Assembly: GCF_037969875.1 (NCBI RefSeq)
Contig: NZ_CP150218.1
Coordinates: 1,302,001 to 1,366,000, forward strand
Reading direction: 5' to 3'
DNA length: 64,000 bases
DNA from: Paenibacillus sp. FSL R7-0337
Lineage (GTDB): Bacteria > Bacillota > Bacilli > Paenibacillales > Paenibacillaceae
In this document: positions 3,251 through 29,157 of the stretch, piece by piece
Layout: every line of letters begins with the position of its first letter
Numbering within the stretch: position 1 is the first letter of the stretch
Made by a program: the position numbers and the translations under genes
Notes under the pieces: model-generated
The model's input: only the letters and a program-made list of their open reading frames with translations
What the model was told of the DNA's origin: nothing
Database searches by the model: none

Positions 3251-3859
3251 TTAAAGCTGCTGCGGCCCCGCCCAGATCAAATGCACCATATTCAGCGAAT
3301 AGCTCTCCACTCTAGTGATTTGCAGCCCCGACTCCCGGACCAGTCCGAGAATATCCCGGGTCTGATGGCAGCCGTATATTCGATAGAGCAGCGGATTCAG
3401 CGCCCGTTGCAGCGTAGAGACCATGATATTAGAACCAATTCCATGCTCCAGGAGCAGGATTGTGCCGTCTGGCTTACACCAGCGGTTAAGCTTCTCTAGC
3501 AGCTTCAGCGGGTTCTTATAGCTGCATAAGGACAGCGTGGAGACAATGGTATCGAACGAATGCGCAGCAAAGCTCATATCTTCGATATCCGCACATATAC
3601 ACTCGGCATCCAGGCGGTACTGTCCGGCGGCCCGTCTGGCCTTCTCAACCATAGCTCCACTGAAGTCCGCAGCTGTGATCTTGACGCCATGAGGATAGAA
3701 CGGGAAGTTCGCCCCGGCTCCGACGGCAAGCTCCAGCACCTCACCCCTCGCAGAACCGATTAGCTTCTGGCGCCAGCGCCGCTGCTTCGGATCTTCTCTT
3801 TTACGGTCATAGTCCGTGGCCTGCCTGTCAAAAATCCGTATCAGCCGCTCTGTATCCAT
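3251..3859 (-). CDS. Class I SAM-dependent methyltransferase (UbiE-like)
   Basis: The 202-aa protein has SAM motif I LELAVGAGAN (residues 42-51), an acidic residue at the end of beta 2 (ITAADFSGAM), motif II around ADIEDMSFA and motif III near KPDGTILLLEHG. This is the Methyltransf_11/UbiE fold at normal length. It transfers a methyl group from SAM to an unknown small molecule, probably in the cytosol. It lies downstream of the PPOX-type flavoprotein (21-nt gap), in a run of four small minus-strand genes. Confidence 0.8.
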   Translation of the reverse strand: MDTERLIRIFDRQATDYDRKREDPKQRRWRQKLIGSARGEVLELAVGAGANFPFYPHGVKITAADFSGAMVEKARRAAGQYRLDAECICADIEDMSFAAHSFDTIVSTLSLCSYKNPLKLLEKLNRWCKPDGTILLLEHGIGSNIMVSTLQRALNPLLYRIYGCHQTRDILGLVRESGLQITRVESYSLNMVHLIWAGPQQL

Positions 3860-5449: not shown

Positions 5450-5626
5450 CCTATAACCCCCTTCTAATTATCCTTAAGAACAACAAGCTTCTTCTATCAT
5501 ACAGGGAAATGCTGGAATGAGGAAGGGATGAGGGTCTGACGATATTTAACCGGCCCATGTGCTTTTTTAGCAACATGTTCTGAGTCTAAGTGTTTATTCT
5601 CCCATCGACCGCTTGTATTGAGCAAC

Positions 5627-5805
5627 ATTGTTGCACTTCTTGCAAGATTCCTTAAGAATAATTACTATATTTGGTACATTGTTGCATCATTTGCAGGAAT
5701 TCCAGTATTCAGAGCAAACTAGAGCTGGTTTTGTTGCCTTTATGCAGGATTTCAGTATGGGGCGCTTATAATAGACAGCATTGTTGCACTTCTTGCAGCA
5801 AATTT
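5627..5805 (+). repeat. Intergenic array A: ~25-nt motif every 51 nt, four copies
   Basis: Four copies of a motif close to ATTGTTGCA-N4-TTGCAGGATTTC begin near 5627, 5678, 5730 and 5780. Their TGCARG cores start at 5641, 5692, 5743 and 5794, exactly 51 nt apart. The ~26-nt stretches between copies do not resemble each other. The rest of the 545-bp gap between divergent genes (5450-5993) holds no convincing gene. The same motif with the same period recurs at 27981-28107. Confidence 0.75.
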
Positions 5806-5993
5806 CTAAACAACAATGAAAGAGGACTGTCCCCCAAAGGATGCTCCCTCATTCATTCTCTATTTTTGCAAATCATTGATCTCCTACTCCGTTAACCCCT
5901 TAATCAAATTTATTCATTAAAATTTTTGACTATCCAGCAGCTAGAAGATATCATGGATGGCATAAGGGCTCACAGAGATCAGGAGGATGAACC

Positions 5994-27000: not shown

Positions 27001-27948
27001 TTAGGCCTTCACACTATAAAAAATCTTCATCACCAGGTCCTGCTCATGGTCGCCGAACTTCTTGCCGAACAAGTTCATTCCGCCCTTGTACCTGGCATCC
27101 TCCTTCACGCCCAGCCGCAGATCCACATGGCTCCTCCGGGGGAGGTTAAGCTGCTCCAGAGTCACAGCGGATAGCTCCTGATGGTCAATGGCGCTGCGGG
27201 TATGGTCTACGCTCCAGGTCTTGAGTGCACCGAACTGGGTGCCCGAATCGATCCACCAGGCAGGGTTCAGCTTTCCGCGCCTGCCGCCGAAGTCGCCCGG
27301 TGAGGTCCAGGTGCCTACCTCAACCCCGTTGATCCAGAGCGTAATATCCGAAGGCCAGTCATTGGCATAATTCGGCGCTTCCGAACAGATCTCCATTGAG
27401 AACTGGATCTCGCGGATCTCTGCCCCTGACGGAATCTCCAGCGGGTAGCGGTATTCGAGATAACCCTTGCGCAGCCAGAGTAGCTGGGCCTGTACCCGGT
27501 CCGGGTGAAAGAACCCCGCCGGCGAGTCCTCCGTAATAATCGGCCCCGTCTCACTGACCATGCCGCAGGTCGGCGCCACCTCGCAGGCGGTGAAATTGCC
27601 GATCGGCATGGCAATCTCGTAGCAATACTCGCCCTGGCCGGCCTCAGCCAGGGGCTGCGGGGCATTGATGATGATCTTGATATCATCATAGATCCGGCTG
27701 CAGACCTTCATCGCACCGCGTGAAGCAGGCAGCAGCTCAGTCACGATTAGCCCGGCCTGCTCCAGCACCTTCACATTGGAGGCCGCTGTCGATACCGGGA
27801 TCTCAAGCGCCTCCGCCAGCTCCGCCACATTCATTCTCCGGGTGTTGAGCAGCGCAAGCATTCTTAACCTAAGCTCCGTAGACAATGCATGTGTCACCTT
27901 CACCAGCTCATCCGCATGTTCCATGGATAGTTCCAGTATCTCGCTCAC
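27001..27948 (-). CDS. ArsR-type winged-helix regulator with beta-sandwich sensor domain
   Basis: About 315 residues. The N-terminal winged helix (LSTELRLRMLALLNTRRMNV, AELAEALEIPVSTAASNVKV, LEQAGLIV) is ArsR-like. The ~200-residue C-terminal part looks beta-rich, with ITLWINGVEVGTWTSPGDF and HVDLRLGVKEDARYKGGMN. This combination recurs beside glycosidase genes in Paenibacillus-type genomes. The start is unclear: ATGs further up lie within repeat array B, so I chose GTG at 27948 beside AAAGGGG. It probably senses a sugar and controls the GH2 gene (inference). Confidence 0.7.
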   Translation of the reverse strand: MSEILELSMEHADELVKVTHALSTELRLRMLALLNTRRMNVAELAEALEIPVSTAASNVKVLEQAGLIVTELLPASRGAMKVCSRIYDDIKIIINAPQPLAEAGQGEYCYEIAMPIGNFTACEVAPTCGMVSETGPIITEDSPAGFFHPDRVQAQLLWLRKGYLEYRYPLEIPSGAEIREIQFSMEICSEAPNYANDWPSDITLWINGVEVGTWTSPGDFGGRRGKLNPAWWIDSGTQFGALKTWSVDHTRSAIDHQELSAVTLEQLNLPRRSHVDLRLGVKEDARYKGGMNLFGKKFGDHEQDLVMKIFYSVKA

Positions 27949-27980
27949 CCCCTTTAACTGTCCGTAATTACATATCCTGC

Positions 27981-28107
27981 AATCCTGCACTAATTGCAAC
28001 ATTCCCCGGATCGAACACCCGCTAACCCGAGAATATTGCATAAAATGCAGCAATTCCTTCGCATAAGGCAGCTATTCCGGACAATTCCTGCAATCTGTGC
28101 AACAATT
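27981..28107 (-). repeat. Intergenic array B: same motif as array A, three copies at 51-52 nt
   Basis: Read on the minus strand, copies at 28107-28083, 28057-28032 and 28005-27981 follow AATTGTTGCA-N4-TTGCAGGAATT. Their first TGCA cores are 52 and 51 nt apart. The 26-27-nt spacers differ from each other. The motif has the same orientation relative to the downstream gene as in array A at 5627-5805. The gap between the regulator and MOSC genes otherwise holds nothing I can assign. Confidence 0.7.
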
Positions 28108-28225
28108 CTCCCAACGGTGCCGCTGCTGAGATATCAAAGTTGTAAAACTTACAACATTATAGTCGCAAAAGTCATTATGTAGGTGACCGCTCACCTTTGA
28201 CAGGAACGTAGGACGTCTGTCCAGC

Positions 28226-28951
28226 TTAGTTATCCAGCATCACAATCTGATCACCGAGCCGGACCTCTCCCGGAGTGATGACGGAAGCATAGACGCCGAA
28301 CTGCTGCTTCAGCTCTTTGTAGACTTGCTTAAGCAGGGAGCTGTCCCGTTCGAGGGTATCCGGGTTCGTGGTAATCATCACGCAGCGCTCACAATAGCTA
28401 TCCACTTGCAGCACTGTACTGCCTATCGACAGACGGCGGCCGAGCCACTCTTCCTCCCCGAGCGAGTCCTCAGTCACTTCCACGAGGAAGTTGCCCCGGA
28501 AGCGGCGCTGATCGACCGGCTTGCCCCACAGGGCTTCCAGCTTCTTCAGGCTCTTATCCGTCACCAGCAGAATACTCGCTCCATCTACCGATAACAGCTC
28601 CGGGTGCTTCTCTTCCGGGTGTGGTGCCATGAACTCAGACATGGTAATTTCTGTGGAAGTCAGACTTTGAATTTCATCCAGCAGCTCCTGATTCCAGCCG
28701 AATACCCGGCCATCTGCAGCCGTCACGCGAATATCTTCCCCCGTATATTCAGCCTTATAGGACATCATTTTGGGAATCTTCCGGGCAGTGATATACTGCG
28801 ACCAGTCTTTTTTGGTCATATCATAAAAGGAACAATACCGGTCCCCCTCCACTCCGTAAGTTACAACCTTACAGGACTCCAGCGCCTCCCCCGCAAAGGA
28901 TTTCACCGGATAACGGTTAATCGATTTAATCTCCCCAACTGTAACTGACAC
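28226..28951 (-). CDS. MOSC-domain protein
   Basis: About 241 residues from GTG 28951 (GAGGTGGGGG upstream). The N-terminus SVTVGEIKSINRYPVKSFAG is the MOSC N-terminal barrel. The MOSC core contains FRGNFLVEV and YCERCVMITTNPDTLERDSS, including the conserved Cys, and ends with VRLGDQIVML. MOSC proteins handle molybdenum cofactor-bound sulfur (as in mARC/YcbX and MocoS C-termini). It is probably a YcbX-like reductase component or sulfur carrier; no Moco biosynthesis genes are adjacent. Confidence 0.85.
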   Translation of the reverse strand: MSVTVGEIKSINRYPVKSFAGEALESCKVVTYGVEGDRYCSFYDMTKKDWSQYITARKIPKMMSYKAEYTGEDIRVTAADGRVFGWNQELLDEIQSLTSTEITMSEFMAPHPEEKHPELLSVDGASILLVTDKSLKKLEALWGKPVDQRRFRGNFLVEVTEDSLGEEEWLGRRLSIGSTVLQVDSYCERCVMITTNPDTLERDSSLLKQVYKELKQQFGVYASVITPGEVRLGDQIVMLDN

Positions 28952-28986
28952 GCCCCCACCTCTTCTGTCTATAATCTGATAGTCTG

Positions 28987-29157
28987 CTACTTTTGTTTGC
29001 TCCAATAGTAAAGGGTCCTTTTCTCGGTGTCGTATTTGTTGAACAGCTGCATCTCTACATTGATAATTTCGCCCTCAGTCGTCTTGGCCCGAATGTCGAG
29101 AATAGACTGCTTATCCCGAGGAGAGTCCTTGTCGGTGTAAGGATTCAGTAGAAAGCT
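28987..29157 (-). pseudogene. Fragment of Rpn-family (PD-(D/E)XK) recombination-promoting nuclease
   Basis: An open segment ending at TAG 28987-28989 encodes NPYTDKDSPRDKQSILDIRA and INVEMQLFNKYDTEKRTLYY. These are the catalytic-core motifs of Rpn/putative transposase nucleases, with the D ... E-M-Q PD-(D/E)XK residues visible. A stop codon lies directly upstream, and the N-terminal ~70 and C-terminal ~170 residues of the family are absent. It is a dead remnant between the Bce permease and MOSC genes. Confidence 0.75.

Follow-up and report, generated by a model that had tools for sequence, protein, structure and literature searches.

Helically phased palindromic arrays in intergenic DNA of Paenibacillus as candidate sites for DNA-bending proteins

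The DNA upstream of an ArsR-like gene in Paenibacillus sp. FSL R7-0337 contains an array of palindromic units, designated array B, and on balance we slightly favor the interpretation that it is a selected array of dimer-binding sites for putative DNA-bending or DNA-wrapping proteins, of a class that lies mostly beside the 3' ends of genes. Conserved sites, constant spacing, and spacers whose letters are free to vary, three features expected of a phased protein-binding array, were all found. Comparisons within this genome and with its relatives show that both the cores and the distances between them are important and that a bending signal is present in the DNA.

Results

Array B contains four units between two minus-strand genes

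Array B is located in the window, that is, the whole stretch of 64,000 nucleotides analysed here, in the intergenic region between an ArsR-like gene and a MOSC-domain gene, both encoded on the minus strand (Table 1). A preliminary description of this stretch had reported three units with steps of 51 and 52 bp, matching those of a first array, array A (5632-5797), and all three were confirmed in place. A fourth unit (unit 1 in Table 1) had been overlooked; array A also has four units, and the core-to-core steps of array B are 51, 52, and 52 bp. In unit 1, both halves of the TGCA-N5-TGCA core are altered symmetrically, and the resulting core type also occurs in genome G219. The units had been thought to share one orientation, but unit 3 fits better when inverted, so they are not all direct.

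Table 1. Positions in the window of arrays A and B and of the genes flanking array B
Feature	Position	Strand	Remarks
Array A, subfamily I, four units	5622..5815	+	cores 5632-5644, 5683-5695, 5734-5746 (one base short), 5785-5797
Array B, four palindromic units in ~190 bp	27974..28165	-	outer limits estimated from footprint
Array B unit 1 core, TGTA-AAACT-TACA (TGTA-N5-TACA variant)	28141..28153	-	52 bp from unit 2; absent from the preliminary count
Array B unit 2 core, TGCA-N5-TGCA, inside TGTTGCA...TGCAGGAATT	28089..28101	-	
Array B unit 3 core, opposite in orientation to units 2 and 4	28037..28049	+	1 mismatch on +, 2 on -
Array B unit 4 core, TGCA-N5-TGCA, inside TGTTGCA...TGCAGGA	27986..27998	-	
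ArsR-like HTH gene adjoining array B	27001..27948	-	PF12840, PF01022; likely true start at or below 27948
MOSC-domain gene, 3' end toward array B	28226..29005	-	PF03473

An open reading frame of 350 aa (27001-28053), which has a TTG start, extends into array B, and the array also contains in-frame ATG codons. The suspicion that such starts create false N-terminal extensions of the ArsR-like gene proved justified, as the gene is retained from approximately window position 27950 down in four array-less relatives (G242, G243, G244, and G267), and the likely true start in Table 1 was placed accordingly. Array B is present in place in G268-G271, and a relic of an end unit is left at this locus in G275. 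Given this relic and the in-place sharing among G268-G271, the array-less relatives look like losses rather than sites that were never filled. Between this genome and G269/G270, array B differs by 4-7 changes in 196 bp (window 27970-28165) and the adjoining genes by approximately 10%; array B is thus better conserved than its neighboring genes, which is unlike most arrays.

One reading of this arrangement is that array B is an operator cluster for its neighbor, here a regulator that perhaps regulates itself. The array does fill the DNA upstream of the ArsR-like gene, but the four relatives mentioned above keep this gene without any array, and arrays of this type occur mostly beside gene 3' ends and near varied genes, so that we regard an operator role as very improbable. 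Helically phased multi-site operators with palindromic or paired sites at fixed spacing are represented by the Hin/Gin enhancer, which has two Fis sites, and by ComK boxes. These serve one locus or regulon, whereas here 40 arrays are present in the DNA sampled and few are at promoters.

The arrays form a genome-wide family in fixed register

Within the window, GTTGCANNNNNTGCAGNA with at most two mismatches occurred 21 times (both strands, with some places matched on both), compared to 6.3 ± 2.6 in shuffled sequence, and none of 100 shuffles reached 21. Across the chromosome, a single contig of 7,714,111 bases (7.71 Mb), exact TGTTGCANNNNNTGCAGNA occurred 78 times, 23 on the plus strand and 55 on the minus strand, and the control pattern, TGTTGCANNNNNTGCAGNA read backwards, occurred 0 times.

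A 721-kb sample of this genome, made up of the window, three regions taken without selection, and 37 regions picked because of their arrays, contained 128 exact TGCA-N5-TGCA cores and 40 multi-unit arrays, two of which are arrays A and B. All 111 core pairs less than 230 bp apart in this sample, most of which was chosen around arrays, were separated by 51-52, 102-104, or 153-156 bp; when a further 400 kb of unselected DNA was included and the limit raised to 260 bp, 111 of 113 pairs were in register. Steps determined by profile scan were 51 bp (123 cases), 52 bp (98), 53 bp (5), and 50 bp (1), with one step each of 102 and 104 bp. The arrays of this genome have two to six units, with four units in 24 of the 40, and at the G269/G270 loci, which were chosen for the motif, 32 of 38 arrays have four units and one has 19. 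In 1.12 Mb, TRF detected repeats with a period of 51 in 17 cases and of 52 in 6 cases, a few of these being TGCA arrays, while every other period above 25 was represented by at most 3 repeats.

A period of 51 nt equals 17 codons, and a coding tandem repeat was therefore considered; this was ruled out by the alternation of 51- and 52-bp steps, which keeps no reading frame through the units. An open-frame test over 115 nt does not separate coding from noncoding DNA here, as a frame is open in 53 of the 65 arrays from Paenibacillaceae as well.

Two subfamilies account for arrays A and B. Subfamily I, the array A type, has 21 members by BLAST; all of its units are direct, its spacers are alike in letters (mean column identity 76% among 9 members), and its copies must have dispersed at some past time. 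Subfamily II, the array B type, has little in common beyond the cores, and one unit of four is inverted. The named genomes in which the three-unit pattern occurs include P. silagei and P. piscarius, whose spacers resemble those of this genome. Two recurrent clusters of apparent proteins from loci of this genome and P. silagei turned out to be translated repeat arrays, which may figure as hypothetical proteins in annotations.

Other palindromes occupy the same register

When noncoding DNA was examined by 6-mer autocorrelation, without reference to any motif and after masking of the TGCA arrays, the highest peaks were at 51 (386 pairs) and 52 (283 pairs), followed by their multiples at 104 and 102, and the best unrelated lag was 38 with 116 pairs. 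Further palindromic units in this genome are TGTAT-N12-ATACA, with 3-4 sites at 51/52 bp, AGGGATTTATCCCT, and AGGTGCA-N4-TGCACCT-like sites. At several loci, TGTAT-N12-ATACA arrays start 80-84 bp past a subfamily-I array, and at L131 four AGGTGCA-N4-TGCACCT-like sites are followed by four AGGGATTTATCCCT sites at exactly 51 bp throughout, eight in a row. In noncoding DNA of random regions of this genome (L336-L355), a separate repeat excess was noted at lags 41 and 82 (210 and 157 7-mer pairs), perhaps reflecting another tandem repeat.

Noncoding DNA from 16 Paenibacillaceae genomes (40-400 kb each) contained 26 repeat clusters at lags 51/52, found in 11 of the 16, compared to approximately 2.5 clusters per other lag; the clusters in G001, G031, G028, G014, and G134 are two units long and could be due to chance, and none was detected in the 40-80 kb sampled from G256, G226, G012, G030, and G108. 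In G060, there is no TGCA pair, yet long 51-52-bp arrays of quite different units are present. None of the 14 repeat clusters in two genomes of other families fell at lags 51/52.

TGCA-type pairs were found in 109 of 394 genomes of the family, with up to 119 pairs in the richest, G267, although in genomes with one or two pairs chance or coding repeats may account for them; the reversed control pattern matched in 5 genomes, with at most 8 matches. Among the 80 loci listed of 95 matching stretches, 15 that match the three-unit pattern are from outside Paenibacillaceae, and by eye most of these look like coding or simple repeats. Two loci from Bacillaceae, L205 from Neobacillus sp. (1301-1781) and L168 from Pseudalkalibacillus (3446-3665), contain 52-bp tandem TGCA-N5-TGCA arrays, with no open frame through the first three units of L205, and the array class may reach beyond Paenibacillaceae in these two cases. 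The three-unit pattern also matched 27 viral stretches in IMG/VR, all with 51+51 steps; 24 of these are open through all 138 codons examined and the remaining three through 113, 124, and 137, and they therefore look like coding or simple repeats.

Cores and spacer lengths are conserved between orthologous arrays

Nineteen arrays of this genome were compared with one ortholog each from G269 or G270. Substitutions per site amounted to 0.075 in genes (795/10591), 0.139 in intergenic flanks (737/5287), 0.139 in spacers (257/1854), and 0.058 in the 19-bp cores (83/1422); spacers and flanks do not differ (p=0.97), whereas cores and spacers do (p=2e-14). Indel events per kb were 1.7 in genes, 13.6 in flanks, 1.6 in spacers, and 1.4 in cores, making spacer indels about eightfold rarer than those in flanks (p=8e-7). 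The spacer indels consist of three events: one affects a single base, another a complete 51-bp unit, and the third is an insertion of 1.4 kb. The preliminary description had noted that the spacers differ from one another, and indeed their letters are free while their length is fixed.

The TGCA letters are altered at 3 of 448 sites, a count biased toward conserved cores because the G269/G270 loci were picked for the motif, a choice by which losses of arrays are also undercounted. This bias is partly corrected by 15 units that match the search motif in neither species, in which the TGCA letters are altered at 1 of 120 sites and the five letters between the TGCA halves at 7 of 75. The footprint extends from approximately -10 to +12 around the core center, or approximately 23 bp per site.

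Eleven of 30 ortholog pairs were kept outside the rate comparison, five as extra orthologs of arrays already counted and six for unit gain or loss or for absence: e3043494, e4761343 (6 versus 19 units), e5025096, e6328261 (4 versus 6), e6423808, and e1307632 versus G269. Among the 24 arrays of this genome that were compared, five differ from the relative by the gain, loss, or absence of whole units or of the array itself, one more is missing from G269 alone, and another is present twice in G269. Since whole arrays and units are gained, lost, or missing in relatives, no single array is essential. Judged from these substitution and indel patterns, it is the array type that is under selection, and individual arrays can grow, shrink, or vanish.

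Several rearrangements in G269 were observed in the course of these comparisons. At L267 (6,060,466 and 6,061,972), one subfamily-II array that is single in this genome occurs twice, approximately 1.5 kb apart; at L265 (5,011,059-5,012,636), an insertion of approximately 1.4 kb interrupts an array that is whole in this genome; and at L251 (163 kb), an array of 19 units, 6 in this genome, has a three-unit super-repeat of 154 bp, which looks like growth by three-unit steps.

The arrays had been described as a dispersed family, either functional or mobile. A functional family is upheld by the genome-wide copies, the rigid period, and the purifying selection on cores, but mobility is not evident from array B, considering its conserved location in relatives and the relic in G275.

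We also considered that the arrays might act in the transcript, where tandem hairpins would form an attenuator or another structured RNA. As RNA, array B does fold better than shuffled sequences (z=-3.8), but among nine aligned members of the 21 in subfamily I, a two-sided change was found in 1 of 40 predicted pairs and the covariation term was unfavorable (+0.83), and in four array B orthologs eight changed pairs are broken, two are kept, and none is compensated. The window had 0 Rfam matches at the gathering score, and an RNA would leave the helical wave described below without a reason; we consider this explanation highly improbable. A hairpin across the spacer was likewise rejected: spacer-end complementarity exceeded shuffles in only 2 of 15 groups (this genome, p=0.003, and G269/G270, p=0.007), and in these two the orientations are mixed and ancestry is shared.

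Spacers carry a helical A/T wave

Thirteen groups supplied 176 non-redundant spacers, in which the fraction of A/T, by distance from the core center, is 0.91 at 11 bp, 0.30-0.32 at 15-16 bp, 0.66 at 20-22 bp, and 0.38-0.39 at 24-25 bp. A cosine of 10.3-bp period has an amplitude of 0.073 in these spacers, compared to 0.000 ± 0.005 with the inner spacer letters shuffled. Each of the 8 groups that have 10 or more spacers shows the trough at 15-16 bp below the peak at 20-22 bp, and this order was not seen in P. contaminans, which is represented by one spacer only.

In 35 arrays of at least four units, A/T power at 10.3 bp was 9.2, compared to 1.3 in 142 array-free intergenic windows and 1.0 after shuffling, and with the 27-bp cores masked the spacer power was 3.0 versus 0.9. 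Array B alone has a power of 12.07 at 10.3 bp, a value reached by 0 of 1000 shuffles. Throughout, shuffle p-values are too small, since related spacers are not independent. Of the first ten harmonics of 51.5 bp, the fifth (10.3 bp) alone is prominent, the others having a power of 0.7-1.6, and the position of the whole-array peak is partly forced because a 51.5-bp repeat has power only at its own harmonics. A single-spacer fit, which is free of repetition, was best at 10.25-10.5 bp (R2 of 0.73-0.74, compared to 0.63 at 10.75 bp). Five turns of 10.3 bp equal 51.5 bp, the observed period. Such a wave is the pattern expected if the DNA were to bend toward a protein surface at each turn.

The wave also bears on the main rival explanation, in which each array would be a strong site for DNA gyrase and the equivalent, in Gram-positive bacteria, of BIME-2, where gyrase would wrap the phased DNA and relieve or hold supercoils between convergent genes. 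In the parts of the published account available, E. coli gyrase recognizes a 130-bp motif with a nucleosome-like GC wave of 10.75-bp period and prefers BIME-2 (PMC6379681), and this motif is like the arrays in having a helical A/T-G/C wave on either side of a symmetric center, but unlike them in having no multi-site register (PMC6379681). The arrays carry a wave of this kind and favor convergent intergenic DNA. On the other hand, the published motif, as far as that account goes, is degenerate, whereas the core letters here are near-invariant, and gyrase would leave both the 51-bp register and the class-specific palindromes unexplained. The difference between the gyrase period and the best-fitting period of the spacers also argues against gyrase, albeit weakly, given the R2 still attained at 10.75 bp. 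For these reasons, we consider it unlikely, if well worth keeping in mind, that the arrays are gyrase sites.

Arrays favor convergent gene ends

By flanking genes, 21 of the 40 arrays are convergent, 16 tandem, and 3 divergent, and the bias toward convergent over divergent positions is significant against other intergenic gaps longer than 200 bp (p=2e-4, from counts taken by hand); genes were called for this purpose by a simple method based on hexamers, and ORF calls overlapped seven of the array regions. The idea that the arrays point toward the downstream gene thus holds for array B but not as a rule.

GC skew places the origin at 4.10-4.20 Mb and the terminus at 0.65-0.80 Mb. Subfamily I is opposed to the leading strand in 19 of 21 members (p=2e-4) and the other classes in 11 of 11 arrays, and by eye subfamily II follows no strand rule. 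Composition could explain part of this bias, since the leading strand is somewhat purine-rich and the array orientations are T-rich.

No conserved neighbor gene was prominent among 483 array-flanking ORFs clustered by BLASTP (array-bearing loci among 151 loci). The largest clusters contained 6 ORFs, two of them being spurious repeat ORFs and the others, found near arrays of several genomes, glycosidase-like and ABC-permease-like (named by eye), which we read as common paralogues. A glycosidase-like ORF directly adjoins a TGCA array at L092, L128, L163, L179, L181, and L198, in several genomes, which may reflect either descent from a single array or chance. In a Pfam search, 10 genes beside long arrays had unrelated functions, one being an integrase and one having no match.

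The dispersed, intergenic, and palindromic nature of the arrays could also indicate a selfish element of the REP/REPIN kind, spread by a Y1 (RAYT) transposase and later decayed into arrays. The 21 copies of subfamily I are alike, and 19 are opposed to the leading strand, an orientation expected from single-strand transposition that may nevertheless be compositional; Y1 matches (PF01797) were found in 9 of 14 array-bearing genomes tested, with five in this genome. PF01797 is absent, however, from the other five, namely G267, which has the most pairs of all (119), G343, G114, G320, and G093, while the array-free G217 and G226 hold 6 and 5 Y1 matches; a Y1 transposase is thus not required. Moreover, the copies are mostly common to species in place and are selected unit by unit. 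Taken together, a decayed selfish element is quite unlikely.

As a kind of sequence, REP/BIME elements of enterobacteria and pseudomonads, in particular BIME-2, are the nearest to the arrays, being likewise dispersed intergenic palindromes in mosaics of unit types, with a wrapping signal like that of strong gyrase sites, but three of four features compared are not shared. The Y1 transposase associated with REP/BIME is absent from the five array-bearing genomes named above; REP/BIME units alternate, whereas array units are mostly direct (all in subfamily I, with one inverted of four in subfamily II); and the GTAG/CGTC tag was not seen, by eye, in a 63-position profile of 81 units from this genome. 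The arrays also have free spacer letters with the length fixed near 51.5 bp.

Discussion

Under the favored interpretation, in which putative bending or wrapping proteins bind the arrays, the usual four palindromic sites, spaced 51-52 bp apart, would all face the same side of the helix. Each palindrome would take a protein dimer, and the spacer DNA would bend or wrap onto the protein surface, much as it does in a nucleosome or around gyrase, to form one nucleoprotein particle of approximately 200 bp. The palindrome classes in the same register might have related proteins as their readers, or a single protein that recognizes shape. Because arrays are rare at divergent promoters and favor gene 3' ends, we propose, speculatively and judging by position, that the particle would probably insulate topology or transcription, or anchor the nucleoid, and would be less likely to act as an operator for a single gene.

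Lrp sites are approximately 30 bp apart, and we know of no Lrp/AsnC protein or RemA that reads TGCA-N5-TGCA. Most bacterial nucleoid proteins are known as weakly sequence-specific. Octamers of the Lrp/AsnC family and RemA rings are nevertheless among the proteins proposed to wrap DNA, according to the portion of the source consulted (PMC8481266), and LrpC is composed of four dimers, where arrays usually have four sites. RemA had two matches in each of 30 genomes tested, with or without TGCA arrays, and being present everywhere regardless of the arrays it explains nothing by itself. Neither neighbor clustering, the Pfam search of neighbors, nor the RemA survey yielded a candidate binding protein.

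A description of such arrays was not found in the full text of open papers. For P. vortex, 231 tandem repeats are mentioned in the accessible part of one report (PMC3012674).

More broadly, it is possible, though we advance it tentatively and with more doubt than confidence, that Paenibacillaceae have a chromatin-like code, in which sequence-positioned particles of approximately 200 bp, typically with four palindromes five helical turns apart, would use interchangeable palindromes on a 51.5-bp scaffold, and a putative family of DNA-wrapping proteins would insulate gene ends topologically. The repeats also account for spurious small ORFs and false N-terminal extensions, and the 190 bp of array B would offer an exact bait for finding the protein. 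If this proposal is true, these intergenic elements would be ruled by helical register, with selection on length and not letters, and would constitute a sequence-encoded architecture comparable to nucleosome positioning or to BIMEs.
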